From positions 1-36,452 of the IMG/VR virus record IMGVR_UViG_3300040808_000141: a stretch of 36,452 bases of DNA; one strand, written 5' to 3'. Of the stretch, positions 10,603 to 30,299 are shown in pieces; within the stretch, counting starts at the first letter, position 1, and each line of letters opens with the position of its first letter. The notes beneath the pieces are model-generated. The model made no database searches. It saw only the letters and a list, made by a program, of their open reading frames with translations, and was not told the origin of the DNA. Origin of the DNA: a virus. The translations under genes and the position numbers were made by a program.

Positions 10603-11336
10603 GCATCCTTGCTCGCGATAATGATATCAACATAATTTACATTGATTGTCGCTGATCCAGAACCTGAAATGGTGTGATCGTGAGAACCACCACCGCCTGT
10701 TGATCCGGTACTAATTCCACTTCCTGTCCTGTATCCAGTAAATTTACTTGGACAACAGTCACTATCACTAGATGATCCACCAACTGTGTGAGTGTGGCTT
10801 GGCATCTCTGATGTGGTCAACGTGTGCGCTCCAGCACTCAATCCAGAAACATCAATTGCCGGAGTTGCCATCGCCGTACTAAATGCGACAGAACCGCCAG
10901 AACTTGCCGTTCCAGAAACAACACGCAACGCTTTATCGTCGTGCGTAGTTTGCTTCGTCCATCCTGTTGGAGCAGAAGTCTGCTGGAACAACATTAACGT
11001 TCCTGATGGGAACGATGGCGGCGCTGGCACCAGATCAATGATAGATTGAATTGTTGCCTTAGCGTTCGCAGTTCCAGACGTGTCGTAGATCAGAACTTCA
11101 TCGAGTTCATCTGCTGTTGCAGATCCAGTTCCGTTAATATCAACAGATACTGTTGTTCCTGATGATGTCAGGCCACTTCCAGCGGTATCAAATGCCGCGT
11201 CAGCAACATCTGAGACGGCCTTGATTGTTGTATCCAACGTATCAAGGTTTGTGTTTATTTTAGTTCCCCAAGTATCCTCTGACGCGCCGACCTCTGGCTT
11301 CGTCAAAGAATAATTGGTCGTGGTTGTATCAGCCAT
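10599..11336 (-). CDS. Tail fibre / receptor-binding protein with T4 gp12-like metal-binding tip, 245 aa
   Basis: Likely recognises the host surface. Residues about 1-100 are a trimeric shaft-like region ([20 protein letters not shown], frequent in phage fibres attached to the baseplate or hub). From residue 109 the tip domain reads [18 protein letters not shown], with two HxH motifs: MPSHTHT (178-184) and SHDHT (218-222). It ends [14 protein letters not shown], the classic end of collar-type fibre tips where paired His residues bind iron in the trimer. Ser/Gly-rich loops lie between the motifs. AAGGAG precedes the ATG. The short shaft suits a stubby podoviral spike. Confidence 0.75.
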
Positions 11337-18362: not shown

Positions 18363-18605
18363 CGGATACGGATATGTCTCTTACGAGACATATATCCGTT
18401 TTATCCGCCTACTGCCTCTGACAAAAATTTGTCCGCTACTTTTATCCGTCTTCATGTAACTCATTGTTTTTATTAAGTTTATAAACAGACACCAACGGAT
18501 AAAATAATTTATCCGTCTGTATCCGTTTTATCCGTTTACAAGATGATTTGAGATAACTCATTGATTCTAATTGGAAATACAAACGGATAAATGCGATTTA
18601 TCCGT
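18363..18605. repeat. Iteron array built on TTTATCCGT / ACGGATAAA
   Basis: ATCCG or its complement occurs at 18363, 18369, 18394, 18403, 18444, 18495, 18511, 18521, 18530, 18583 and 18600. Full TTTATCCGT or ACGGATAAA copies are at 18441-18449, 18495-18503, 18508-18516, 18527-18535, 18583-18591 and 18597-18605. Two pairs face each other with 4- and 5-base loops (18495-18516, 18583-18605). ATATGTCTC and its complement (18372-18393, loop ttac) add a hairpin. Spacing is irregular. Confidence 0.75.
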
Positions 18606-20634
18606 CGTAGTCAATTATCCCTCCATCGTCGTCACCAAAATCCATGATCGCACTGTCACTTGTAGCCGCCCATCCGTTCTTGTACGGCTCAATATATTCA
18701 GCATCTAATAAGATACCGATGAACGTATTAGCAGTCGGCTGCATCTGACGTTTCGCATACGAGTCCTTCATTCCGATACTTGGCCCAGTTAAAAAACTCA
18801 GCATCGAGTATCGATCGACGAACGGTCTGCCTTTGTCATCCCTATCACGATGGCAAGAATGCCACGCTCGCTCAAACCGTCTACGATTTTCTTCGACCTT
18901 CGATACTTTTTTGTCCATCTTCATCGGCTCACTGACAGACTCCAACACGACAGTCGATACCTGTTCGCCATCCTCATCACGCCAGCCAGCAATGTCTACC
19001 TTACGCAGCTCAAAGAACAGACTGTCCTTCATCTCAGCGTCTTTCATTTTGCGCTGCACAACTTCGATTGGACTCGATCCCTTTGATGGCTTCACGCTGA
19101 TCTCGATATCCAATGCGCCTCGCCATGCCGATGATCCTCTGGCTCGATGCTGCGCTTCCTCTGATACGCCTGTGTGGTGAACTAAGATAACTGTGCAGTC
19201 AAACTCTTTCATTAGCAATGCACACGCATCTAACATTGACTTGGCGTCCTGTGCGCTATTCTCGTCGCCTAGAAGATGCCTATGGAGCGTGTCTATGCAG
19301 ATCACCCCCGGCCTCTCTGGAAGCGCCCTGACGTTCTCTATGACCTTTAGCAGCCCCTCATTGGTATTAAGATCAGTCCCAGTCCGACTCATCCAAAACT
19401 TAATCTTGTTCACACCAAACTTCTGCATCCATCCAGCAACTCTGGCCCGTAGTCCGTAATGTCCCTCACCAGCGAGATAAACGATCGGCAAATGCTTTGT
19501 CTTATTGCCGCACCAGTCTCTGTCCTCGATCTCATCTGCCGCCATACGAAGACACCAGTCGAGCACTAGGAACGTCTTTCCAGAGCCTGACGGCCCATGC
19601 ACCATGCACAGACTATTGCTGACCAGCCAAGACTTGATCAGATACGATATCGGCGCTGGAGAGTCTTTAAACTCATTACCATCGACCAGCCAATCATAAA
19701 CTGGCAACTCAGGCTCGAGCAGCGCAGACAAATCATTCCCAGCCAGCAAGTAATCGTTCGCATCCATTCCTTCAATCGGTGGAATGACGACAGTTGCATT
19801 GTGTTTTGCGCTGGCCTGATCAGCATAACTGCGACCGACTCCAGACTTATCATTATCAGCGACGATGATAAGCCGCGTAGAAGCGCCGTAGCGCTCTCTA
19901 AGTTGTCCGACAACTGTTGGTATGTTCGAGGCCGAGTAAGCGACGTAACACGCCTTAGAAGTCGTCTCAGAGATAGTTGCAGCAGTAGCGTATCCCTCGG
20001 CGACATACACAATAGTGTTATCGTCATCCTCACCGATACGCCAATACGATCCACCAGTTTTGCCGCCAGAGTGATAAAGCTTGCCCCCAGCTGCATCGAT
20101 GTATTGCACCGTCGTCATCTCGCCGTCGTCATTGTAGAGCGGAACGATCAGTCGGCCATCCCCAGTAACTCTTGCGCCATGTGGCTTAATTTGCTTCTTG
20201 ATTAGGTAAGGATGATCCTCGGTGGCGTGAGCAGACTCGCTCCAGATCTTATTGACGACCTCGGATACGTTCTCCCGCATCACGGCATCTGACTCTGCCC
20301 GCGCTTTCTTTGCGGCCTCAATCCGTCTCGCAAACTCAATCTCTTCGCTCTGCGTGAGTCGACGACCGATGTCTTCACACCATGAGCGTTGCTCGCCAGT
20401 TCTCCAGCAGCCAAAACTCCCAGCGCGAATGCCGTCACCAAAAACAATATACCAGCCACTTTTATCTGAACGACCTGATCTTCCACTGCTACCCGAATTA
20501 AATCTATGTATTCTTCCGTCAAAAATGATTTCACGAGGCGGCTCCAATCCAGCATCAACAATTGCGTTTCGTAACTGTATCTCGGGAGGATCTACAGGCT
20601 TTTTGTCTTTCCAAATCTCGGTAATGTTAGCCAT
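18598..20634 (-). CDS. Primase/helicase: TOPRIM primase fused to RepA-like ATPase, 678 aa
   Basis: Replication initiator and helicase. Residues about 55-80 carry the primase-associated YIVFGDGIRAGSFGCWRTG. TOPRIM motifs are VYVAEGYATA (209-218) and LIIVADND (255-262). The RecA/RepA-type ATPase has Walker A HGPSGSGKT (346-354), Walker B VICIDTLHRH (444-453), VHHTG (485-489) and RGSSAWRGALD (499-509). The acidic C-terminus ends in the iteron array. GAGG lies seven bases before the ATG, which overlaps the end of the HTH gene. No zinc finger is seen at the N-terminus. With no polymerase in the genome it probably loads host DNA polymerase III at the adjacent repeats. Confidence 0.9.
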   Translation of the reverse strand: MANITEIWKDKKPVDPPEIQLRNAIVDAGLEPPREIIFDGRIHRFNSGSSGRSGRSDKSGWYIVFGDGIRAGSFGCWRTGEQRSWCEDIGRRLTQSEEIEFARRIEAAKKARAESDAVMRENVSEVVNKIWSESAHATEDHPYLIKKQIKPHGARVTGDGRLIVPLYNDDGEMTTVQYIDAAGGKLYHSGGKTGGSYWRIGEDDDNTIVYVAEGYATAATISETTSKACYVAYSASNIPTVVGQLRERYGASTRLIIVADNDKSGVGRSYADQASAKHNATVVIPPIEGMDANDYLLAGNDLSALLEPELPVYDWLVDGNEFKDSPAPISYLIKSWLVSNSLCMVHGPSGSGKTFLVLDWCLRMAADEIEDRDWCGNKTKHLPIVYLAGEGHYGLRARVAGWMQKFGVNKIKFWMSRTGTDLNTNEGLLKVIENVRALPERPGVICIDTLHRHLLGDENSAQDAKSMLDACALLMKEFDCTVILVHHTGVSEEAQHRARGSSAWRGALDIEISVKPSKGSSPIEVVQRKMKDAEMKDSLFFELRKVDIAGWRDEDGEQVSTVVLESVSEPMKMDKKVSKVEENRRRFERAWHSCHRDRDDKGRPFVDRYSMLSFLTGPSIGMKDSYAKRQMQPTANTFIGILLDAEYIEPYKNGWAATSDSAIMDFGDDDGGIIDYDG

Positions 20635-21177: not shown

Positions 21178-21209
21178 AAAAAGGACACCTAGCCGGCTAA
21201 GTATCCTTT
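21176..21209 (-). terminator. Rho-independent terminator for the 21220-22043 genes
   Basis: On the minus strand a 15-bp stem (21180-21209, two G-U pairs) is followed directly by seven T (21182-21176). Read on the plus strand the same stem has mismatches and no T-run, so it mainly stops minus-strand transcription, before it would invade the HExxH gene. Confidence 0.85.
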
Positions 21210-21219
21210 CGTGTGTTAG

Positions 21220-21719: not shown

Positions 21720-22043
21720 TTAAAAGTTGTAGTCGTAAAACTTAATTGGCTGATCTGATAAAAAGTGTCGACCATACTTGCTTTTCCAAAAACCATGCTT
21801 ATGACCTTTTGGCTTATTGAGTCTGGCCTTAACGACGGGCTGTGTTTCATCAGATGTGATTAACCAGCGCTGTCTATCTTGATTAGTAACGTGACCGAAA
21901 AAACCGCCAGCAACAAAATCTATGCCCCAATCCAACTCGCGGTACTTCATCTTGCGAATCTCGATAGTCTTATCTGAAATCACGCGGATAACCTCGAACG
22001 GCTCAACGTCTGTATACAAGTGTTGGTTTGCAAATTTTTCCAT
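21720..22043 (-). CDS. Conserved phage protein, 107 aa
   Basis: I recognise the layout of a widespread small phage family from MEKFANQHLYTDVEPFEVIR, IEIRKMKYRELDWGIDF, FVAGGFFGHVTNQDRQRW, and the final FLSDQPIKFYDYNF. It appears as a hypothetical early protein in many phage genomes. Mostly beta-rich, with no transmembrane span. GGAG lies seven bases before the ATG. First gene of the minus transcript whose promoter and leader hairpin lie at 22065-22128. Function unknown. Confidence 0.75.
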   Translation of the reverse strand: MEKFANQHLYTDVEPFEVIRVISDKTIEIRKMKYRELDWGIDFVAGGFFGHVTNQDRQRWLITSDETQPVVKARLNKPKGHKHGFWKSKYGRHFLSDQPIKFYDYNF

Positions 22044-22064: not shown

Positions 22065-22091
22065 GGAATGTCGGCCCAATGCCGTGTTTCC
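22065..22091 (-). promoter_or_regulatory. Leader hairpin L1 (two-tier stem with ACA/ACA internal loop)
   Basis: On the minus strand: GGAA, ACA, CGGC, loop ATTGG, GCCG, ACA, TTCC. Four-base outer stem, symmetric 3x3 internal loop, four-base inner stem, five-base loop. It begins about three bases after the predicted transcription start and is followed by CCTAG. The same architecture is found at 22386, 23715 and 29805 on the plus strand. Confidence 0.7.
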
Positions 22092-22100
22092 ATATACGTT

Positions 22101-22128
22101 ATTCTATACATATTAGGATCGAGCACAA
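22101..22128 (-). promoter_or_regulatory. Promoter for the minus-strand early genes
   Basis: TTGTGC (22128-22123) and TAGAAT (22106-22101) are 16 bases apart, reading toward the 107-aa gene. The sequence after the -10 (ATAACGT..ATGGA) closely matches the segment after the plus-strand promoter at 22348-22377, which supports both as real promoters. Confidence 0.65.
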
Positions 22129-22168
22129 TACCTAAAAGCACTTTTTTTAACAAAATAAGCAAAAAAGT

Positions 22169-22342
22169 ATGAAAATATACAGAGTCCAAGTCGAAACACT
22201 GCCCACGGCCTACTTTGGCACATTGCGAGAGGCGCAGGCATATACCGACAAACACCAGCATTTAGGCTGGATCGTAACTGAGCTGCGTATGCCCAAGACC
22301 AAGCCAGCCATCATGAAATGGCTTGCCAAACACTTTAGTTAA
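22169..22342 (+). CDS. Hypothetical small protein, 57 aa
   Basis: Reads MKIYRVQVETLPTAYFGTLR with an EAQAYTDKHQHLGWIVTEL middle and a basic end. One plausible alpha/beta mini-domain, ending in a Lys-rich helix. The ribosome site is weak and a promoter-like sequence is not clear, so transcription could come from the HExxH side only if it passes the terminator at 21176. It lies between the two divergent leader hairpins (22065-22091 and 22386-22410). The balanced amino-acid use supports coding. I do not know the function. Confidence 0.5.
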   Translation: MKIYRVQVETLPTAYFGTLREAQAYTDKHQHLGWIVTELRMPKTKPAIMKWLAKHFS

Positions 22343-22347
22343 AATTA

Positions 22348-22377
22348 TTTACACAAAAATATTAGTTGGTCTATAAT
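22348..22377 (+). promoter_or_regulatory. Sigma70-like promoter for the plus-strand middle genes
   Basis: TTTACA (22348-22353), an 18-base spacer, and a perfect TATAAT (22372-22377). The predicted start lies near 22384, about two bases before hairpin L2. The best promoter for the 96-aa gene and what follows. Confidence 0.78.
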
Positions 22378-22385
22378 AACGTCAT

Positions 22386-22410
22386 GGACACACGGAATCG
22401 CCGAAAGTCC
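22386..22410 (+). promoter_or_regulatory. Leader hairpin L2
   Basis: GGAC, ACA, CGG, loop AATCG, CCG, AAA, GTCC, then TAG. Same two-tier layout as L1, and starts about +3 from the predicted transcription start. Both L1 and L2 are preceded by ATAACGT and followed by a CCTAG. Confidence 0.72.
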
Positions 22411-22432
22411 TAGTCAAAAAAAGGAAACAAAA

Positions 22433-22723
22433 ATGAAAGTAGAAAACACAGTCGAAATGTTGGTCGATAAAGTTGGCGCAATGAAAAAAATCGTTGCTGA
22501 TTACAATCGCGAAATCAAAGCGCTTGAGGAAGAAATCAAAGACCAGTGCCAGAAAAACGATATCAAAAAAGTTTACGGCTCAGTCTTTAACGCAACGTAT
22601 GTCGAGGCCAATCGCAGAGTTCTTGATTGGAAAACATTGATCGACGATATGGGCGTCGACTCTAACACTCGCGAAAAATACACAACGACTTCAGCGATCT
22701 TCTCGCTACGAATCGGTGTTTAA
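22433..22723 (+). CDS. Coiled-coil hypothetical protein, 96 aa
   Basis: Residues 1-45 form a charged helix (KKIVADYNREIKALEEEIKD), likely a coiled coil. Residues 46-96 are a small beta/alpha part (VYGSVFNATYVEANRRVLDW; TTTSAIFSLRIGV). The helix plus substrate-grip pattern recalls small nuclease-inhibitor or recombination-helper proteins of phages, but no name is justified. AAGGA lies upstream, and the gene is the first one after the promoter and leader hairpin L2. Its stop overlaps the following GTG start by 8 nt. Confidence 0.65.
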   Translation: MKVENTVEMLVDKVGAMKKIVADYNREIKALEEEIKDQCQKNDIKKVYGSVFNATYVEANRRVLDWKTLIDDMGVDSNTREKYTTTSAIFSLRIGV

Positions 22724-22985
22724 AGTAATCATCAACGGATATGTGGTCGGCGAGTACGTTGACCACGCTTCCGCAAAAATGCATTATGACGAAGCTTGCT
22801 ATGAAAATTTGCATGGCGACAATTGGAAAATAAACTCAGTAAAACTTGAAGGAGAAAACATTGCCAGACCAAAGACTAAAAATAAATCAAATGCGCGAGG
22901 CCGTAGCTCAATATACGGGCGAGCGTCACTGCGCCTATTGCAGCAAATACAGACCGCTCGCGGGCGGCAAGTTCAAGGCAAATAA
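22716..22985 (+). CDS. Hypothetical protein, GTG start, 89 aa
   Basis: Reads MFKVIINGYVVGEYVDHASA and then a compact alpha/beta part to about residue 45 (NLHGDNWKINSVKLEG), which looks like a genuine small domain. From residue 49 to the end the frame is Arg/Gln/Ser-rich without regular structure and overlaps the zinc-finger gene (22861-23049) by 125 nt in another frame. The GTG start lies within the end of the 96-aa gene. Either the tail is overprinted, or the true product is shorter and the stop has been lost. Confidence 0.45.
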   Translation: MFKVIINGYVVGEYVDHASAKMHYDEACYENLHGDNWKINSVKLEGENIARPKTKNKSNARGRSSIYGRASLRLLQQIQTARGRQVQGK

Positions 22986-23049
22986 CTCACGATGGATGTG
23001 CAAGTCCTGTATCGATTTTAGGAAGGGAGATAAACGTGGTAGTAATTAA
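22861..23049 (+). CDS. Small zinc-finger-like protein, TTG start, 62 aa
   Basis: Contains ERHCAYCSKYRPLAGGKF, then WMCKSCIDFRKG: two CxxC knuckles about 22 residues apart, a single structural zinc finger. The frame is open to a TTG at 22846, but AAGGAG (22849-22854) sits six bases before the TTG at 22861, so that is the probable start; ATG 22891 is a second option without a good site. The gene overlaps the 89-aa ORF. Likely DNA- or RNA-binding accessory protein; target unknown. Confidence 0.62.
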   Translation: MPDQRLKINQMREAVAQYTGERHCAYCSKYRPLAGGKFKANNSRWMCKSCIDFRKGDKRGSN

Positions 23050-23308
23050 AGTAAACACATTGTTCCTCGCTATGGCAGCTGACCGCGATCACGAGATTCC
23101 AGAGATCCTCAAAGTAGAGGGCAAGTTCTCTTATATTTTGCGAGATGATCCAGCGCTACCTGACGTGCTCGAGTACGCCGGATACTTTGCCGAGATCGAG
23201 ACTGCCTCCATCGAGACATATGAGTACGAGATGCACAAAGAGGCCAAGATCTTTTGCGATATCGTTGAGCCAATCATGGTTGAGAAATGGGATAACTGGA
23301 ATGCTTAA
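23036..23308 (+). CDS. Hypothetical acidic protein, GTG start, 90 aa
   Basis: Starts at GTG as MVVIKVNTLFLAMAADRDHE and continues with an acidic mixed domain (DDPALPDVLEYAGYFAEIET) and a helical end (EAKIFCDIVEPIMVEKWDNW). No known motif. It begins within the end of the zinc-finger gene and ends overlapping the ATG of the next gene (ATGCTTAA), so it is part of a tightly packed operon. Unknown function. Confidence 0.55.
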   Translation: MVVIKVNTLFLAMAADRDHEIPEILKVEGKFSYILRDDPALPDVLEYAGYFAEIETASIETYEYEMHKEAKIFCDIVEPIMVEKWDNWNA

Positions 23309-23510
23309 ATTATTTGAGAGATTTATCGACTTAATGTATTTCCTCGTTGGCGGATTGGTCACGCTGATGCTCATCTACATTATCGCGTTAGAATGGGATG
23401 AGAGGATAATGAATGAAAATAAAAAAGTTTGTCAGCACGAAACAAGACTCCACGATGCTTGTAATACTCGTGTCGGTGAGTTCAAGCGACCGAGACACGA
23501 CTGTGCTTGA
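23301..23510 (+). CDS. Single-span membrane protein, 69 aa
   Basis: Reads MLKLFERFIDLMYFLVGG, then a hydrophobic span LVTLMLIYIIALEW (residues about 18-32), then a charged tail with Cys/His (CQHETRLHDACNT). An N-terminal amphipathic helix plus one span suggests a membrane protein with a cytoplasmic or periplasmic tail. I choose the ATG at 23301 because it overlaps the stop of the 90-aa gene; the frame is open further upstream without a good start. Its last 98 nt overlap the following gene. Confidence 0.55.
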   Translation: MLKLFERFIDLMYFLVGGLVTLMLIYIIALEWDERIMNENKKVCQHETRLHDACNTRVGEFKRPRHDCA

Positions 23511-23703
23511 CCATCATCTGCCCGGCGCTGGCCTCTACGTTATCGAACAGGACGACATGACATCTATCGCTGAGTCTTGCGAGGATTTCTTTCCTGAGTT
23601 TGATCTCAGTGTGACAGCGCAGCGCGATGCGGCATTTTCTGAGTATTCAGAAATGTTGATTGATAGCGAGTCTTACGCACCATTACCAAAAAGACTTTGC
23701 TAA
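23413..23703 (+). CDS. Hypothetical acidic protein, 96 aa
   Basis: Basic start (MKIKKFVSTKQDSTMLVILV), then an acidic part (TVLDHHLPGAGLYVIEQDDM; ESCEDFFPEFDLSVTAQRDA) and an end rich in Ser/Pro/Leu. AGAGG seven bases before the ATG at 23413 supports this start even though it overlaps the membrane gene by 98 nt. It is followed by the extended -10 and leader hairpin of the next transcription unit. No family recognised. Confidence 0.55.
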   Translation: MKIKKFVSTKQDSTMLVILVSVSSSDRDTTVLDHHLPGAGLYVIEQDDMTSIAESCEDFFPEFDLSVTAQRDAAFSEYSEMLIDSESYAPLPKRLC

Positions 23704-23706
23704 AAT
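23698..23706 (+). promoter_or_regulatory. Extended -10 promoter for the recombination genes
   Basis: TGCTAAAAT is an extended -10 (TGn + TAAAAT at 23701-23706). A -35 is not clear. The predicted start is near 23713, two bases before leader hairpin L3, the same spacing as for L2. Confidence 0.5.
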
Positions 23707-23714
23707 AACTAACT

Positions 23715-23738
23715 GGCGAATGGGATTTCCCGACCGCC
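23715..23738 (+). promoter_or_regulatory. Leader hairpin L3
   Basis: GGCG, AAT, GGG, loop ATTT, CCC, GAC, CGCC. Outer stem of four base pairs and inner stem of three, with a 3x3 internal loop, as in L1, L2 and L4. The ribosome site GGAGG of the ATPase follows 10 bases downstream. Confidence 0.6.
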
Positions 23739-23756
23739 GTTTAACTTGGAGGAACT

Positions 23757-24416
23757 ATGGCAATAACTGTAAATAGTACGGCGACGATTGCTAATTCGGC
23801 GAAGCTTTTAGTCTACGGACAGGCTGGAGCTGGAAAAACAACGTTGATTAAAACACTACCTAATCCAATCATCCTCTCTGCCGAAGGCGGACTGTTGAGT
23901 ATTCGTGACGCTGATCTGCCGTTCATCGAGATCAGTAACATGGAAGATCTCAAGGAAGCGTATATGTGGTTGATGGATAACTCCAAAGACTTTTCCTCGG
24001 TGGCAATAGACTCGATCAGCGAGATTGCTGAAGTGATTCTGAATCACCAGAAAAAGACTGCGAAAGATCCTCGACAGGCATATGGGGCGATGCAAGAACA
24101 GATTACAGATCTGATTCGCTCATTCCGAGATTTACCTATGCACGTTTTGATGACAGCAAAACTCGATAAAATGCAAGATGAGATGGGGCGCATTCTTTAC
24201 TCTCCCTCGATGCCCGGCAACAAAACTGGTCAACAGCTCCCATACTTTTTCGACGAAGTGTTAGCGCTTCGAATTGAAAAGGATTCTGAGGGGAACACTT
24301 GGCGCGGATTGAAATGCATTGCCGATGCATCTTGGCAAGCGAAGGATCGCTCAGGAAAGTTGGATGAGTGGGAAGAACCAGACTTATCGAAACTAATCTC
24401 TAAGATCGGAGGATAG
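23757..24416 (+). CDS. Sak4-like RecA/AAA ATPase (ssDNA annealing), 219 aa
   Basis: Single-strand annealing ATPase in phage recombination. Walker A is GQAGAGKTT (21-29), Walker B SVAIDSISE (81-89), and a sensor-like ILSAEGG region lies near 39-45. The layout matches AAA_24/Sak4 proteins, which pair with a ssDNA-binding protein. A second motif region is HVLMTAKLDKMQDEMG. Good AGGAG ribosome site. Downstream are the DUF7173-like, DUF669 and exonuclease genes, a standard recombination cassette. Confidence 0.85.
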   Translation: MAITVNSTATIANSAKLLVYGQAGAGKTTLIKTLPNPIILSAEGGLLSIRDADLPFIEISNMEDLKEAYMWLMDNSKDFSSVAIDSISEIAEVILNHQKKTAKDPRQAYGAMQEQITDLIRSFRDLPMHVLMTAKLDKMQDEMGRILYSPSMPGNKTGQQLPYFFDEVLALRIEKDSEGNTWRGLKCIADASWQAKDRSGKLDEWEEPDLSKLISKIGG

Positions 24417-24417
24417 T

Positions 24418-24819
24418 ATGCTGCCGAAGACTCTTAAGGGACTTAGTTCTGCTTGGATCGATGCGAAAGAAATTGAGCGACAGGCCGTTGAAAAACGGCG
24501 ATCGATCGAAGACGCAATGAAAGTCATGATGGAAATCGATGATATGAATGACACAACGACCACAAAACGGATCGAAGACATTCGCATCAAAGTGACCACC
24601 AGACTCAACCGCAAGATTAATTCTGAAAAGCTTCAAGACTTAGCAGCTGAGTCTGGACTATCGGAATACTTGCCGACCTTATTTCGGTGGAAACCCGAAA
24701 TCAATATGTCAGTGTGGAAGAAAACTGACAGCAGCATCACAGATAAACTGCTAGACGCGGTCACTACCGTCCCGAGCAGACCATCTTTTAACATCATCAA
24801 CGAAGACGAAGGAGAATAA
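24418..24819 (+). CDS. DUF7173-like phage protein, 133 aa
   Basis: Mostly helical, charged protein: GLSSAWIDAKEIERQAVEKR, then ALSI-type helices, then a middle section with KVTTRLNRKINSEKLQDLAA and an acidic tail. It occurs regularly between Sak4-like and DUF669/SSB genes and is thought to help recombination, but its biochemistry is unknown. The gene begins one base after the ATPase stop and ends one base before the DUF669 gene. Good GGAGG site. A name beyond the DUF is not supported. Confidence 0.7.
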   Translation: MLPKTLKGLSSAWIDAKEIERQAVEKRRSIEDAMKVMMEIDDMNDTTTTKRIEDIRIKVTTRLNRKINSEKLQDLAAESGLSEYLPTLFRWKPEINMSVWKKTDSSITDKLLDAVTTVPSRPSFNIINEDEGE

Positions 24820-24820
24820 A

Positions 24821-25288
24821 ATGGATTTAGAATTTGATAGTCACGACTTAGTTATCGACGACGAACCACGAGAGTACACGCCAGTTCCAGACGGCTGGTA
24901 TGACGCTCGGATTATGGGAGCTGAGTTGAAAACAACTAAGGCCGGAAACGGAAGATACATTTCCGTTCGCTACGATATCACTGGCTCTGATTACGCTGGT
25001 CGTGTTGTGTTCGGTAACATCACCATCAACAATCCGAATGCAGCTGCTGAGACGATCGGTCGTAAGCAGTTGAGTCAGATTGCACTTGCTGGCGGACTAA
25101 GTTCACTCCCGAAAGATACTGACGAATTGGTCGGCATCGATCTTAAAGTGAAAGTTACTGTACGCCCAGCGACCGAGCAGTACGCCGCATCGAATGATGT
25201 GCGCGATTGGAAGCCACAGGCTGGCGGCGCTCAACCTCCAGCTGCAAAACCTAAAGAGGCGAATCCAAACGCACCTTGGGCAAAATAA
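24821..25288 (+). CDS. DUF669 / ssDNA-binding-like protein, 155 aa
   Basis: OB-fold-like protein thought to bind single-stranded DNA. The family signature is YTPVPDGWYDARIMGAELKT followed by GRYISVRYDITGSDYAGRVV and NPNAAAETIGRKQLSQIALA. The C-terminus is Pro/Ala/Lys-rich (about 127-155), typical of an SSB tail. Strong AAGGAG site. The rho-independent terminator at 25292 follows within 4 bases of the stop, so some transcripts end here. Confidence 0.82.
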   Translation: MDLEFDSHDLVIDDEPREYTPVPDGWYDARIMGAELKTTKAGNGRYISVRYDITGSDYAGRVVFGNITINNPNAAAETIGRKQLSQIALAGGLSSLPKDTDELVGIDLKVKVTVRPATEQYAASNDVRDWKPQAGGAQPPAAKPKEANPNAPWAK

Positions 25289-25291
25289 ACT

Positions 25292-25311
25292 GGGGGCTTC
25301 GGCCCCCTTTT
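25292..25311 (+). terminator. Rho-independent terminator (UUCG hairpin)
   Basis: GGGGGC, loop TTCG, GCCCCC, then TTTT. A six-base GC stem with a UUCG tetraloop directly before the nuclease ribosome site (AAGGAG). The short T-tract suggests partial termination, lowering expression of the nuclease and downstream genes. Confidence 0.8.
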
Positions 25312-25324
25312 CTTAAGGAGTCAC

Positions 25325-26335
25325 ATGAGCAAAATAGTTGAACGCATCGACGAATACCATCGCAAAAACACAGACACACAGCGTGGGCATATGGGCGGAT
25401 CAATCCTCGGGCATAAGTGCGAGAGATATCTTTGGTATATGTTTCGCTGGACATTCCAAGAAAACTTTTCAGGTCGAATGAGGCGATTGTTTCGTCGCGG
25501 TCAACTAGAGGAACGTGTGATAGTTTCCGATTTGCGAGCGATCAACATCAACATAAAAGAAGTTGGCAACAATCAATCGCGAGTTGAATTTGGCAATCAC
25601 ATTAGCGGATCTGTTGATGGGATTATTCATGGCGGAGTTCCTAACCATGAGGAAGAAAAATTTATTGCTGAGTTCAAGACTCATAACAAAAAATCTTTTG
25701 ACCTTGTAGCGCGCAAGGGCGTACAGGAAACAAAGCCAATGCACTACGCGCAAATGCAAGTCTATATGAAGGGCAAGGATATACCGAAGGCGCTGTACGT
25801 TGCGGTATGTAAAGATAACGATGAGATGTACACAGAGATCGTTGAGTTTGACGAAGAATACGCAGACAGATTATTGCGTAAAGGCGAGTACATCACACTG
25901 TCTAACGAAGCGCCGCCAAGGTTATCTAAAGATCCCACATGGTTTATGTGCAAGACTTGCCCAGCAAAGCATATCTGTCACGAGGGCAAACCAACTAAGC
26001 AAATTAACTGTAGGACGTGCTCTCATGCATCCCCGCAGCCGGACGGAACTTGGGACTGCACGAGATTCGACGCTGAAGAAATCCCAGAGGATTTTCAGCG
26101 CAAGGGATGCGACTCACACGTCTTGCATCAGGACGTTGTGCCTTGGCCGAGGATGGAAAGCAGTACGCCAGTCGAGGCGGTGTATGAGATTGAAGGACAG
26201 TTTATCCGCAACGGAGAAGGCGACGCAAATACATTCAAAAGCATTGAGTTGGTCAGTAACTTGGATGCGTGTTTGAATCCAGATGAAACGATTAAAGATT
26301 TACGATTTAACTTCGGAGGGAAAATTACAGGATGA
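25325..26335 (+). CDS. PD-(D/E)XK nuclease with cysteine cluster, 336 aa
   Basis: Likely single-strand or end-resecting exonuclease. The PD-(D/E)XK core is SGSVDGI (D98) and AEFKTH (E116, K118), followed by HYAQMQVYM (140-148), the helix expected after the third strand. Cysteines C209, C212, C218, C229, C232, C245 and C262 form a cluster that could hold zinc or an iron-sulphur centre, as in RecB/Cas4-like enzymes. AAGGAG precedes the ATG. Works with the Sak4-like and DUF669 genes upstream. The metal type cannot be told from sequence. Confidence 0.78.
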   Translation: MSKIVERIDEYHRKNTDTQRGHMGGSILGHKCERYLWYMFRWTFQENFSGRMRRLFRRGQLEERVIVSDLRAININIKEVGNNQSRVEFGNHISGSVDGIIHGGVPNHEEEKFIAEFKTHNKKSFDLVARKGVQETKPMHYAQMQVYMKGKDIPKALYVAVCKDNDEMYTEIVEFDEEYADRLLRKGEYITLSNEAPPRLSKDPTWFMCKTCPAKHICHEGKPTKQINCRTCSHASPQPDGTWDCTRFDAEEIPEDFQRKGCDSHVLHQDVVPWPRMESSTPVEAVYEIEGQFIRNGEGDANTFKSIELVSNLDACLNPDETIKDLRFNFGGKITG

Positions 26336-26616
26336 CTATGAAAAGCATTGAAGCAACACTAGCAGAGCGTCACGGACAGTATGGCAAGTACACATATGTA
26401 AGCAAAACAAGCCAGAGTCTAAAGAAGATCGTGCGCGAGTCGCCTAATTACCGAACTATGCCCCCGCCGATGCAAGAAAGTCTCGACATGATCTGTAACA
26501 AGTTGGCGAGGATTCTTTGCGGTAATTATTATTTGCATGATACTTGGCACGACATTGGTGGATACGCAAAGTTGGTAGCCAATGAATTAGAAAATCTAAA
26601 CGCAAGTGATGATTAA
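26332..26616 (+). CDS. DUF6378-like small phage protein, 94 aa
   Basis: Known as a small phage family of unknown role: MTMKSIEATLAERHGQYGKY, then SLDMICNKLARILCGNYYLH and DTWHDIGGYAKLVANELENL. Mostly helical; the D-x-W-H-D-I-x-G phrase is the family core. Its ATG overlaps the nuclease stop (ATGA), so translation is coupled. It might be an accessory factor for DNA metabolism. Confidence refers to it being a real gene of this family. Confidence 0.72.
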   Translation: MTMKSIEATLAERHGQYGKYTYVSKTSQSLKKIVRESPNYRTMPPPMQESLDMICNKLARILCGNYYLHDTWHDIGGYAKLVANELENLNASDD

Positions 26617-26618
26617 TC

Positions 26619-27254
26619 ATGAAAAGTATGTATTCGATAACGCTTTGCGACAAAAAAGATATTTTTCCATTGTTAAAAGAGCATCATTATCTTTCAAAAA
26701 TTTCTCGTGGATTTAAAACAAAATTTAACGTTGGATTGCAGCACAAGGAAAAGATTGTAGGCGCTTGTATTTTTACAGGCTTCCCTGTTCCTGAATTAGC
26801 AAAAGGATGTTTTGGTTTAGAGCGAAATGAACAGGAAGGATTGTGGGAGTTGAGCCGTTTTGTCTTGCATCCAGAACATCAATTGAAAGAACATAACCTT
26901 TCGACATGGTTTATGTCTCGGGCAATAAAAGAGCTTAAAAGAAAAGAATTAGTTCGCGCGATTTTGTCTTACGCAGATAATGATGAGCACAGCGGCGTGA
27001 TTTATGCAGCAAGCAATTTTAAATATTACGGATTGAGTTCTGCTAAAAAAGATTTCTGGATAAAAGAACAAGATGGGACATTTAAAAAACACTCTAGAGG
27101 AAAAATAAAAGGTGTTGATGGAGAGTGGAGACCTCGCAGTCAAAAGCATCGTTTTTTATTAACTTTTGACAAAAAGTTGGATTGCCGTTGGCAAGAAGAA
27201 AAATGGAAAAACAAAAAACAATATGCTGAGGAAATATCAGAAAACGGCAATTGA
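26619..27254 (+). CDS. Mom-like DNA modification enzyme (GNAT fold), 211 aa
   Basis: Resembles phage Mu Mom, a GNAT-fold enzyme that adds a carbamoylmethyl group to adenine in DNA and so blocks restriction. Visible: GLWELSRFVLHPEH (74-87), STWFMSRAIKELKR, then VRAILSYADNDEHSGVIYAA (112-131) and SNFKYYGL, all typical of the Mom core (SYAD, G.IY.A.N). The acceptor base and the product in this phage are not known. The gene is visibly AT-richer than its neighbours and has no good ribosome site, hinting at recent acquisition. Its end overlaps the helicase start by 32 nt. Confidence 0.75.
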   Translation: MKSMYSITLCDKKDIFPLLKEHHYLSKISRGFKTKFNVGLQHKEKIVGACIFTGFPVPELAKGCFGLERNEQEGLWELSRFVLHPEHQLKEHNLSTWFMSRAIKELKRKELVRAILSYADNDEHSGVIYAASNFKYYGLSSAKKDFWIKEQDGTFKKHSRGKIKGVDGEWRPRSQKHRFLLTFDKKLDCRWQEEKWKNKKQYAEEISENGN

Positions 27255-28812
27255 GCAGCTGTACAGCTGGTTTAGGGCGCACGAGTATGGCAATCCATGC
27301 ATAGTGCTGCCCACTGGCAGCGGCAAGTCTCACGTCGTCGCAGCGCTTTGCAAGGACGCAATAACCAACTGGCCTGAGACTCGCGTTCTAATGGTCACGC
27401 ACGTTAAAGAGTTGATCGAGCAGAACGCTGAAAAAATGTTGCTGCACTGGCCTGAAGCGCCGCTCGGGATATACAGCGCTGGAATCGGGCGTAAAGAGGC
27501 CCATGAACAAATCACGTTTGCTGGGATACAGTCTATCAGGAAAAAGGCGCACGAAATAGGACATATCGACCTAATGATCGTGGACGAAGCGCATCTGATA
27601 TCCACGAACGAAAACACTGGTTATCGAAAACTGATTGATGCGCTGAAGATAATTAATCCAGCGCTGAGAGTCATCGGCTTGACGGCTACGCCGTACCGAC
27701 TTGGTCACGGGATGATCACGGATAAGCCAGCCATATTTGATGATCTGATCGAGCCGACGTCCATCGAGGCGCTGGTCGAGGATAAATACTTGGCCCCGCT
27801 AAGGTCAAAGCTTACTGACACAAAGTTGACGGTCGAAGGCGTACATAAACGCGGCGGAGAATACATAGAAAAAGAACTGCAAGATGCCGTTAACAAAACA
27901 CACAAGAACGATGGAGTTGTGCGCGAAGTAATTAAATTGGCTGGAGATCGCAAGGCATGGTTGTTCTTTTGTGCTGGCGTAAAACACGCATACGCCATCA
28001 AAGATTTACTAATTCAGAATGGAATTGTTGCTGAGTGCATCACTGGCGACACGCCAAAAAAAGAACGAGAAGAGATCATTAGTCAGTTTAAGTCTGGGCG
28101 CATCAGAGCGCTCACAAACGCCAATGTTCTAACGACTGGATTCGACTATCCAGATATCGATTTGATTGCGATGCTGAGGCCCACAATGAGCGCTGGTTTA
28201 TATGTTCAGATGGCTGGTCGCGGCATGAGAATCAAAAGCCATACAGATCACTGCCTTGTGCTCGACTTCGCTGGCGTCGTTCAGGCTCATGGCCCAATAA
28301 CTAACGTCCAGCCGCCTAATAAGCCAAGCAAAGGCGACGGTGAAGCGCCAGTGAAAGTTTGCCCAGAGTGCGATAGCCTATTGCCACCAGCCGTAAGAGA
28401 ATGCCCAGACTGCGGTTATCAGTTCCCACCGCCCGAAGAGAAAAAAATGAAGCTTCATGACGTGGACATAATGGGCAATTCAAACAATGTTCTCGCAGTT
28501 CATGATTGGGATTGGTCAACGCACGTCTCCAGAGCGAGTGGGAAGAGAATGATTAAAGTGAAATATTACTCTAAGTTGCTGAGTGATCCAGTGGTGTCTG
28601 AGTATTTTCCGATAACTCACGAAGGATTTGCTGGAAATAAAGCTAGAATATCTTTAGCACAAATAGCAGCTAAGGCGGATGCTGAAGCATTCGATATTTC
28701 TGACTTGAACGACATTTGTTACTTTATGAATGAGGGCGATCCACCGAATGAGATATCCTACAAAAAGGAAGGCAAATACTTCCGCGTCACAAAAAGGGAG
28801 TGGGCGGACTGA
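27223..28812 (+). CDS. SF2 DEAD/DEAH-box helicase with zinc ribbon, 529 aa
   Basis: Walker A PTGSGKS (30-36), DEAH box VDEAH (120-124), TATPYR (154-159), and motifs V/VI LTTGFDYPDID (303-313) and QMAGRGMR (329-336). A zinc ribbon CPECDSLLPPAVRECPDCG (380-398) follows, placed as in ComFA/DEAD-box phage helicases. A C-terminal domain of about 120 residues has no known motif. I start at the ATG 27223 because the protein then begins with the Q-motif-like RKYQKTAIEQL; the frame is open to a TTG at 27166. Likely unwinds branched DNA in replication or recombination. Confidence 0.88.
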   Translation: MLRKYQKTAIEQLYSWFRAHEYGNPCIVLPTGSGKSHVVAALCKDAITNWPETRVLMVTHVKELIEQNAEKMLLHWPEAPLGIYSAGIGRKEAHEQITFAGIQSIRKKAHEIGHIDLMIVDEAHLISTNENTGYRKLIDALKIINPALRVIGLTATPYRLGHGMITDKPAIFDDLIEPTSIEALVEDKYLAPLRSKLTDTKLTVEGVHKRGGEYIEKELQDAVNKTHKNDGVVREVIKLAGDRKAWLFFCAGVKHAYAIKDLLIQNGIVAECITGDTPKKEREEIISQFKSGRIRALTNANVLTTGFDYPDIDLIAMLRPTMSAGLYVQMAGRGMRIKSHTDHCLVLDFAGVVQAHGPITNVQPPNKPSKGDGEAPVKVCPECDSLLPPAVRECPDCGYQFPPPEEKKMKLHDVDIMGNSNNVLAVHDWDWSTHVSRASGKRMIKVKYYSKLLSDPVVSEYFPITHEGFAGNKARISLAQIAAKADAEAFDISDLNDICYFMNEGDPPNEISYKKEGKYFRVTKREWAD

Positions 28813-29167
28813 ACACGTTGAGCAGCGAGAGTTTGTAAGTTGGTTTCGAAAAAACTACCGAGGGATACGGATCATCGCGATACCAAACGGCGGGCAAAGA
28901 AATATAGTCACCGCAGCACGTCTGAAGGCCGAAGGCGTAGTCCCCGGCGTCCCAGATCTTTTTATACCAGAATGGGATCTGTGGATCGAAATGAAGAAAA
29001 TTAGCGGCGGTCGAGTATCGCCGCAGCAGGTGGATTGGCACAATTATCTGCAATCCATTAACCAAAGTGTTATTATCTGCAAAGGATTTGAGGATGCTAA
29101 GTCTCAAATTGAGGAATTTAAAACGACAACTATTATGGAGAACTATGGTGGAACGGAACCTGACTAA
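28748..29167 (+). CDS. VRR-NUC nuclease, 139 aa
   Basis: PD-(D/E)XK nuclease of the VRR-NUC family, structure-specific and often tied to recombination. Seen: HVEQREFVSWFRK (23-35, E25), IPNGGQRN (45-52), GVPDLF (67-72) and WIEMK (79-83), the standard E, PD and ExK set. The ORF is open upstream to 28730. The ATG at 28748 is my choice; neither has a good ribosome site, and both overlap the helicase end, so it is probably translated by coupling. The C-terminus overlaps the following HTH gene by 23 nt. Confidence 0.8.
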   Translation: MRYPTKRKANTSASQKGSGRTEHVEQREFVSWFRKNYRGIRIIAIPNGGQRNIVTAARLKAEGVVPGVPDLFIPEWDLWIEMKKISGGRVSPQQVDWHNYLQSINQSVIICKGFEDAKSQIEEFKTTTIMENYGGTEPD

Positions 29168-29489
29168 AAACATGCGGTCTGCTGACAACATCAGATCGCA
29201 CAGAATTAAACTTAAACTAAGCCAGCGTGAACTTGCTGTCATGCTTGGCGTCAGTCGCAAAACAGTGAGTGATTGGGAAAACGGCGCTAATTTGCCGTCA
29301 GACGTTAACAAGCAAAAGCTTGAGCAGTTGTTTTATACAGGAAAGATTGAGCAAGATCAGATCTATCTCGATCCCGAGCGCAATGCGCTTCTGTACAGCA
29401 AAATTAATTGGATTGGGATGACTGCAATGATGCTTGGATGTGCGGCTATCTTCGCTATGATTTATCTAGTCCTTGGAATGTATGGTTAG
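29145..29489 (+). CDS. Membrane-anchored HTH regulator (XRE), 114 aa
   Basis: Residues 11-60 are an XRE helix-turn-helix (RIKLKLSQRELAVMLGVSRK at 20-39 then TVSDWENGANLP). Residues about 88-112 are one transmembrane span (INWIGMTAMMLGCAAIFAMI). So a DNA-binding head is tethered to the membrane. The frame is open further up; I choose ATG 29145, which has GGAG five bases upstream and overlaps the VRR-NUC end. Its role is probably regulatory. The next gene starts within its last codons. Confidence 0.75.
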   Translation: MVERNLTKNMRSADNIRSHRIKLKLSQRELAVMLGVSRKTVSDWENGANLPSDVNKQKLEQLFYTGKIEQDQIYLDPERNALLYSKINWIGMTAMMLGCAAIFAMIYLVLGMYG

Positions 29490-29700
29490 TTTCAACCTTA
29501 GAAAACACAACAAAAGAATCAAACATATCAAGTTCGGCCCGTACTACTTGGTCGCACTTGATAAAGTGAAAGATGGAGAGCCATTGTTTACGTTTATAGA
29601 CGGCAAGACGTATAAGGCGTCTGAGGCGCTGTCTTTGGCTAGGAAATATGGTTATAATCATGTGGAGCGAGTCTACGAAGCGTTTAATTCGCTTGGTTAA
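29482..29700 (+). CDS. Hypothetical protein, 72 aa
   Basis: Reads MVSFNLRKHNKRIKHIKFGP, then YYLVALDKVKDGEPLFTFID and a helical end (SEALSLARKYGYNHVERVYE). Small alpha/beta fold, mildly basic. The frame extends 3 codons to a TTG at 29473; the ATG at 29482 is near GGA. It overlaps the end of the membrane-anchored HTH gene, and its stop is followed 30 bases later by the terminator at 29731. No family name. Confidence 0.55.
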   Translation: MVSFNLRKHNKRIKHIKFGPYYLVALDKVKDGEPLFTFIDGKTYKASEALSLARKYGYNHVERVYEAFNSLG

Positions 29701-29730
29701 CTTACTTTTTTCATAGATTTCTCCTTCTTC

Positions 29731-29757
29731 GGCCCACTTCGTGTGGGCCTTTTTTTT
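29731..29757 (+). terminator. Rho-independent terminator of the plus-strand middle operon
   Basis: GGCCCAC, loop TTCGT, GTGGGCC, followed by eight T. Strong hairpin after the 72-aa gene and before the next promoter, so it ends the long plus-strand transcript. Confidence 0.9.
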
Positions 29758-29764
29758 GCACTTG

Positions 29765-29794
29765 TTGACACAAAAGTGTTTTTTCGTGCATAAT
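29765..29794 (+). promoter_or_regulatory. Sigma70-like promoter for the DUF6011 gene
   Basis: TTGACA (29765-29770), 18-base spacer, CATAAT (29789-29794). Perfect -35 and good -10. The predicted start is near 29801, a few bases before leader hairpin L4. Confidence 0.8.
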
Positions 29795-29804
29795 TCAGTT
29801 ATCG

Positions 29805-29832
29805 GATCAAACGGGAATGGCCCCGACCGATC
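29805..29832 (+). promoter_or_regulatory. Leader hairpin L4
   Basis: GATC, AAA, CGGG, loop AATGGC, CCCG, ACC, GATC. Same two-tier scheme as L1-L3: four-base outer stem, 3x3 internal loop, four-base inner stem. An alternative fold with ATCGG/CCGAT (29801-29831) also exists. Followed by CTAGGAG before the ATG. Confidence 0.6.
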
Positions 29833-29849
29833 TAAACTAGGAGAAAAAA

Positions 29850-30299
29850 ATGAGCAAATTCGACGACCACAAATCTGCAATTGAGTTCATCTACGGCGGC
29901 AATGCTGTCTTCACTATCAAGTCTCTCAAGACTGATAAGCATTTCACATACAAAGTGACTCAAGCTAAACGCGAGAGTGAGCGCGACGCAGCTCCATATT
30001 TTGTTCGCGTTCTTGCTGGCCCTGACAATCAAGACTGGGCGGCTAGTCAGTACATTGGATTTCTTAAAGAGTACGCGCTTCCAGTTGACGCTGATCCATT
30101 GCTCGCTGGTAAAAAAGGCAAGCCTGATGCCCCTAGTTTCAAGGCGCTACAATGGGTTTTGATGAAGTTGTACCGCCGAGATATGGACGGTTTCGAGATC
30201 ATGCACGAGGGCCGTTGCTGCCGCTGCAATCGCACTCTTACTCATCCAGATAGCATCAAAACTGGCGTTGGCCCGGAGTGTGCAAAACACTTCGGCTAA
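29850..30299 (+). CDS. DUF6011-type zinc protein, 149 aa
   Basis: The C-terminal 30 residues (GRCCRCNRTLTHPDSIKTGV then GPECAKHF) are the DUF6011 signature, a small zinc knuckle with C123/C126/C144 and nearby His. The N-terminal part (NAVFTIKSLKTDKHFTYKV; YFVRVLAGPDNQDW) is the beta domain typical of this phage family, about 100 residues. Single-gene transcript: own promoter and leader L4, and it converges with the lipoprotein gene, overlapping by 4 nt. Probably a nucleic-acid-binding regulator; function unknown. Confidence 0.75.
   Translation: MSKFDDHKSAIEFIYGGNAVFTIKSLKTDKHFTYKVTQAKRESERDAAPYFVRVLAGPDNQDWAASQYIGFLKEYALPVDADPLLAGKKGKPDAPSFKALQWVLMKLYRRDMDGFEIMHEGRCCRCNRTLTHPDSIKTGVGPECAKHFG

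Follow-up and report, generated by a model that had tools for sequence, protein, structure and literature searches.

A covarying two-tier leader hairpin at predicted mRNA 5' ends in a group of marine and freshwater phages

The 36,452-base virus record IMGVR_UViG_3300040808_000141, which we analysed over its whole length and call the window, is from a tailed phage. The capsid, portal, and terminase genes are all on the minus strand, and the early region contains genes for a Sak4-like annealase, a DUF669 SSB-like protein, a Cas4-type exonuclease, a helicase, and a primase. An earlier note on this DNA had pointed to four promoters (at 22.1, 22.4, 23.7, and 29.8 kb), each followed by a hairpin of the same two-tier form. 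This raises the question of whether these hairpins are copies of a genuine RNA element and, if so, what such an element might do at the start of phage transcripts.

Four promoters and their leader hairpins

At all four promoters we observed the same order of a -10 element, a gap of 7-10 nt, a two-tier hairpin, an SD sequence, and a start codon (Table 1). The sigma70-type or extended -10 promoters proposed in the earlier note were each found, as were the four hairpins at the coordinates claimed for them. The register of L3 was corrected from 23715-23738, with internal loops AAT/GAC, to 23714-23739, with loops GAA/ACC, based on the relatives L008 and L017 and on a covariance model. In L4, an outer G-U pair extends the hairpin described at 29805-29832 by one base on each side. 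Judged from its sequences, the element in general form is an outer stem of 4-6 bp, an A-rich 3x3 internal loop, an inner stem of 3-4 bp, and an apical loop that begins with A. Using a strict descriptor (four Watson-Crick outer pairs, a 3x3 loop, 3-4 inner pairs with at least three GC, and a loop of 4-6) we found five sites on both strands of the 36,452 bases, comprising L1-L4 and one intragenic site at 10965-10990.

The leaders form a single hairpin of 24-30 nt. Unstructured RNA and the SD come after it, and in the folded leaders of the window the SD is unpaired. Folding energies of single leaders are unremarkable (z from -0.3 to -2.3). Thus, single leaders are not unusually stable and the case for the element rests on comparison. 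The promoter of the cro-like/primase genes near 20.86 kb has no hairpin, indicating that the element is not general to early promoters. In the window's group, the hairpin is present at almost all strong promoters, defined by at least 10 of 12 matches, that have a normal-length leader.

The replication operon of the window also contains a Mom-like DNA modification gene (26619-27254). In the gap between the primase and terminase small subunit genes (18490-18610), ACGGATAAA occurs several times, together with two palindromes of ~24 nt; these are possible origin iterons or terminators.

Table 1. Coordinates in the window of the promoters, hairpins, genes, and terminator-like structures discussed in the text.
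Feature	Position	Strand	Basis or remark
L1 promoter, -10 TAGAAT, 9 nt upstream of hairpin L1	22101-22106	-	sequence
Hairpin L1, GGAA-ACA-CGGC-AUUGG-GCCG-ACA-UUCC	22065-22091	-	R1 24.5 bits, R2 26.9 bits; MFE fold
107-aa gene led by L1, phrog_19789, function not known	21720-22043	-	opens short leftward unit
Terminator-like hairpin, 14 pairs and T run	21179-21210	-	closes L1 unit before cro-like/primase genes
L2 promoter, sigma70-type, TTTACA-18-TATAAT	22348-22377	+	11/12 matches
Hairpin L2, GGAC-ACA-CGG-AAUCG-CCG-AAA-GUCC	22386-22410	+	R1 28.9 bits
96-aa gene led by L2, function not known	22433-22723	+	
L3 promoter, -10 TAAAAT with extended -10 TG	23701-23706	+	
Hairpin L3, relatives' register, UGGC-GAA-UGGG-AUUU-CCCG-ACC-GCCG	23714-23739	+	relatives, covariance model
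Sak4-like ssDNA annealing protein, L3 operon gene 1	23757-24416	+	phrog_124, 6.7e-60
DUF669 SSB-like gene, L3 operon	24821-25288		
Terminator-like hairpin and T run within L3 operon	25292-25307	+	SSB-like/exonuclease gap
Cas4-type exonuclease gene, L3 operon	25325-26335		
Terminator-like hairpin closing L3 operon	29731-29749	+	upstream of L4 promoter
L4 promoter, sigma70-type, TTGACA-18-CATAAT	29765-29794	+	11/12 matches
Hairpin L4, GGAUC-AAA-CGGG-AAUGGC-CCCG-ACC-GAUCU	29804-29833	+	
149-aa gene led by L4, phrog_20259, C-terminal DUF6011	29850-30299	+	

Recurrence and covariation in related phages

Relatives were retrieved by means of two genes, the Sak4 gene headed by L3 and the gene headed by L4, and most of them have the element at the matching position. 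A covariance search, which the earlier note had named as a way to refute its proposal, found further copies at homologous promoters. The model gave 78 matches in 1.17 Mb of relatives, and those that were checked lie in 5' leaders. In scores of related IMG/VR contigs, and in the named carriers given below, the placement is the same, 7-10 nt past the -10 and just before an SD and ATG, and the element heads at least seven unrelated downstream genes. Counterparts of L3 include TGGC-GAA-CGG-ATTTC-CCG-ACC-GCCG in L008 and TGGC-GAA-CTG-ATTT-CAG-ACC-GCCA in L017. Loci that were at first scored as element-free carry other inner stems (CTG/CAG, CAG/CTG, UUGA/UCAA, and UGA/UCA) within an unchanged outer architecture. 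Named carriers are the Alteromonas phages PB15 and XX1924, the Idiomarinaceae phage 1N2-2, the Salicola phage CGphi29, and the metagenomic MW202867; others are IMG/VR contigs from marine and freshwater settings, together with phage-like contigs from alpha- and betaproteobacterial MAG bins.

Among other phages that have Sak4 or are related, no copy was found in MW202475 or in the examined regions of Seurat, CRP-901, Stenotrophomonas ply2008005c, Variovorax VPv64, and Sulfitobacter M39. When 2.9 million viral contigs were scanned by pattern, using two fixed outer stems, the real matches came from this phage group; the remaining matches had no promoter and SD context, and many were in coding sequence. 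An exact-pattern scan of genome contigs gave 0 matches, and a covariance search of 369 bacterial genomes from one class gave 4 matches at E <= 0.01 per genome, approximately the chance expectation.

Several other features were observed in the relatives. A near twin of the window (L089, 36,476 nt) also has four copies of the element. At 1749-1775 of L089 a hairpin leader heads a plus-strand cassette at the position of the leftward L1 cassette of the window, as if promoter, leader, and genes had been swapped as one unit. There is a group I intron in L017 (9982-10208, minus strand). Freshwater relatives contain a different hairpin, for example GCTG-GTCA-TGC-AAAAGA-GCA-GAT-CAGC, followed by a T run and located 10 nt past a TATAGT -10 (L027 8248, L045 14389, L056 11595, L060 11320, L073 11402, L076 12851). 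This hairpin is a candidate for another leader element or an attenuator.

The observation in the earlier note that the stems differ while pairing is kept extends to the relatives, where both stems covary and G-U pairs occur, pointing to an element at the RNA level. Among 36 diverse sequences, a set partly chosen by pairing because the first relaxed scan demanded outer pairs and an A at the first loop position, all eight pairs change on both sides, double-change cells number 80 compared to 21.9 after shuffling, and the covariation score is 0.714 compared to 0.141 after shuffling and at most 0.141 with slid partners. Fitch counts on a Sak4 tree, made from sites parsed with pairing required, gave at least 13, at least 10, and at least 15-17 independent compensatory changes for the three variable outer pairs and 6 changes for an inner pair. 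As checks on selection we used a context scan blind to the outer pairs and a parse of the Sak4 leaders with no base requirement. The context scan selected CGGA[AT]N3-4CCG sites that are preceded by a -10 and followed by an SD and start codon. At least three of four outer pairs were present in 26/26 of these sites and all four in 23, whereas four pairs were present in 0/64 occurrences of the motif elsewhere. From these comparisons it is near certain that the two-tier RNA structure is real and under selection.

The parse of 32 distinct Sak4 leaders yielded 20 different outer stems. In these same leaders the 5' internal loop has A at its second position in 32/32, and the 3' internal loop has A at its first position in 30/32, the two exceptions having the L3-type register shift. 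The first base of the apical loop (AAUUGG, AUUCC, AGUC, and similar) is an invariant A in 36/36 aligned sequences, some of which came from the scan that demanded A there and others from searches with no such demand. At promoters of genes other than Sak4 the internal loop reads ACA, AGA, or AAA on its 5' side, indicating that the element has subtypes. Stems saturated with changes beside fixed loops point to loops that are recognised or to a defined fold.

Predicted placement at the transcript start and possible roles

The first paired base is 7-9 nt past the -10 in 27 of the 34 leaders with a two-tier MFE structure, and the hairpin is 9 nt past the -10 in 22 of the 32 distinct Sak4 leaders. Transcription initiates ~7 nt after the -10, suggesting that 0-3 unpaired bases precede the hairpin and that the element is the predicted extreme 5' end of the phage mRNA. 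The earlier note was thus right to place the hairpin at the predicted transcription start; its offset of 3-5 bases after the start is revised, with the stem beginning at about +1 to +4. We infer that the carrier operons are early.

Among the three roles first offered for the hairpins (5'-end protection, antitermination as by put RNA, and binding of a small Cys-rich protein), 5'-end protection suits this placement best. RppH prefers 5' ends that are single-stranded, which are also where RNase E tethers, so that 5' structures stabilise mRNA (PMC3997798). The strict spacing to the start fits 5' shielding more directly than any other reading. Based on placement and this biochemistry, shielding of early phage mRNA from RppH and RNase E is the most likely function of the leader hairpin, with about an even chance of being correct. 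Host sigma70 RNA polymerase would make an early phage mRNA that begins with the two-tier hairpin. With 0-3 unpaired leading bases the triphosphate end would be a poor substrate for RppH, RNase E would be unable to tether at the structured end, and replication, recombination, and small early genes would thereby be expressed longer. Shielding needs no sequence, yet the loop A's are fixed, which counts against simple shielding, and the conserved loops probably serve a further role. The internal and apical loops may perhaps be read by something, with RNA polymerase or a factor of the host as the likeliest reader.

The unremarkable folding energies of single leaders would suit chance hairpins picked by eye, a reading that the covariance search refuted and to which the covariation, the recurrence at homologous promoters, and the low rate elsewhere leave a negligible probability. 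The inverted symmetry right at the promoter could also be that of a DNA operator, in which a repressor would bind an imperfect palindrome at the transcription start. However, the four sites of this one phage have four different outer arms, the arms vary freely yet stay complementary, with G-U pairs in L025 and L084, and the 3x3 mismatches are kept unpaired. We rejected an operator, which we regard as very improbable, because the arms vary but remain complementary. Readers of RNA are harder to dismiss. Invariant A's and fixed loop-adjacent pairs amid saturated stems resemble protein-bound RNA hairpins, and there are several copies per genome at unrelated genes, as might be expected of a site for an RNA-binding protein, either from the host or phage-encoded but not universal, that jointly controls translation or decay of early mRNAs. 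This is unlikely in our estimate, as the hairpin is clear of the SD and a search for a co-inherited trans factor across the named carriers found only replication and recombination genes common to all, genes that are present also in the copy-free MW202475. The same search gave no support to the small Cys-rich phage protein suggested previously. A CsrA/RsmA site, with GGA exposed in the loop, was rejected because GG is paired in the CGG form and the CTG/CAG forms have no loop GGA. It is possible, and we suggest it tentatively, that the hairpin serves to identify early mRNA of the phage, with a host component recognising the A-rich 3x3 loop and the apical A whatever the stem. This reader could be RNA polymerase, a decay enzyme, or the ribosome, and would work by a mechanism unlike that of put or boxB; the outcome would be either persistent antitermination or phage mRNA that selectively outlives that of the host.

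The chief alternative to shielding is a put-like antiterminator, in which the nascent hairpin would bind RNA polymerase and allow it to pass in-operon terminators with no phage protein. It would account for an element at the very start of operons, for conserved unpaired bases among varied stems, and for carriers that have no dedicated trans factor in common. In addition, a terminator-like hairpin with a T run is found at the same place within the Sak4 operon of the window, L007-L018, PB15, XX1924, and 1N2-2, and in the window the exonuclease SD is directly 3' of this terminator. MW202867 has a hairpin at that position with no T run. Against this reading, put is ~70 nt with two stem-loops (PMC9378689), whereas the element is a single short hairpin, and put does not need strict spacing to the start (putR is ~270 nt downstream). 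Many freshwater relatives with the 5' hairpin show no in-operon terminator, the L1 and L3 units stop at strong terminators just before other promoters, and L4 heads one short gene. We therefore consider put-like antitermination rather unlikely.

Relation to known leader structures

The statement in the earlier note that no described RNA family has this form agrees with our searches of Rfam 15, which gave no match at gathering score for the whole window or for the element in carriers, and weak chance-level matches or none at lowered thresholds. A literature search of incomplete coverage found no published description of the element. Structured phage mRNA leaders are known from only a few model phages, and in this case a single compact RNA form stands before unrelated operons of one genome and is retained throughout a large group of phages from marine and freshwater habitats, even as its stems change. 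Because PB15, XX1924, 1N2-2, and CGphi29 are cultured, the function is directly testable. In phage genomes from metagenomes the element points to predicted sites of early transcription initiation, and a portable element of 25 nt would be useful in itself if it raises or protects mRNA.

The closest parallels for 5'-end protection are the ompA and papA mRNAs of E. coli, which are stabilised by 5'-terminal stem-loops (work of Emory, Bouvet and Belasco, as cited in PMC3997798). As in these mRNAs, the hairpin is predicted to be within a few nt of the 5' end and upstream of a free SD; it differs in being a defined two-tier form with conserved loops found at unrelated operons across a phage group. 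The leader of T4 gene 32 has a hairpin of the CUUCGG type that stabilises its transcript (PMC8948821). This too is a 5' hairpin of a phage transcript for replication (single-strand binding), but the element has no CUUCGG loop, has a symmetric 3x3 internal loop, and is found in many operons and phages. A stem-loop in the T7 gene 10 leader raises the mRNA level in a betaproteobacterium (PMC6146998). It is likewise a hairpin in a phage mRNA leader, one that raises mRNA level and expression, but it has one tier and belongs to a transcript of T7's own polymerase. We know of no family-wide covariation in the T7 gene 10 leader.

The put RNA of HK022 is similar in being a cis-acting structured RNA that opens early phage transcripts with no dedicated phage protein, early timing being the probable case for the element. 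Like put, the element is located in transcripts of putative early promoters, at 7-10 nt past the sigma70-type -10 of replication/recombination and small-gene operons. The put RNA acts by binding the beta' zinc-binding domain of RNA polymerase and suppressing termination. The covariance model had no match in an HK022 stretch, within which putL and putR were not located. The two adjacent stem-loops of put differ from the single hairpin of 24-30 nt. Taken together, the sequences describe what appears to be a 5'-terminal leader hairpin, which is a known kind of structure, in a form that is new, widely shared, covarying, and apparently undescribed.
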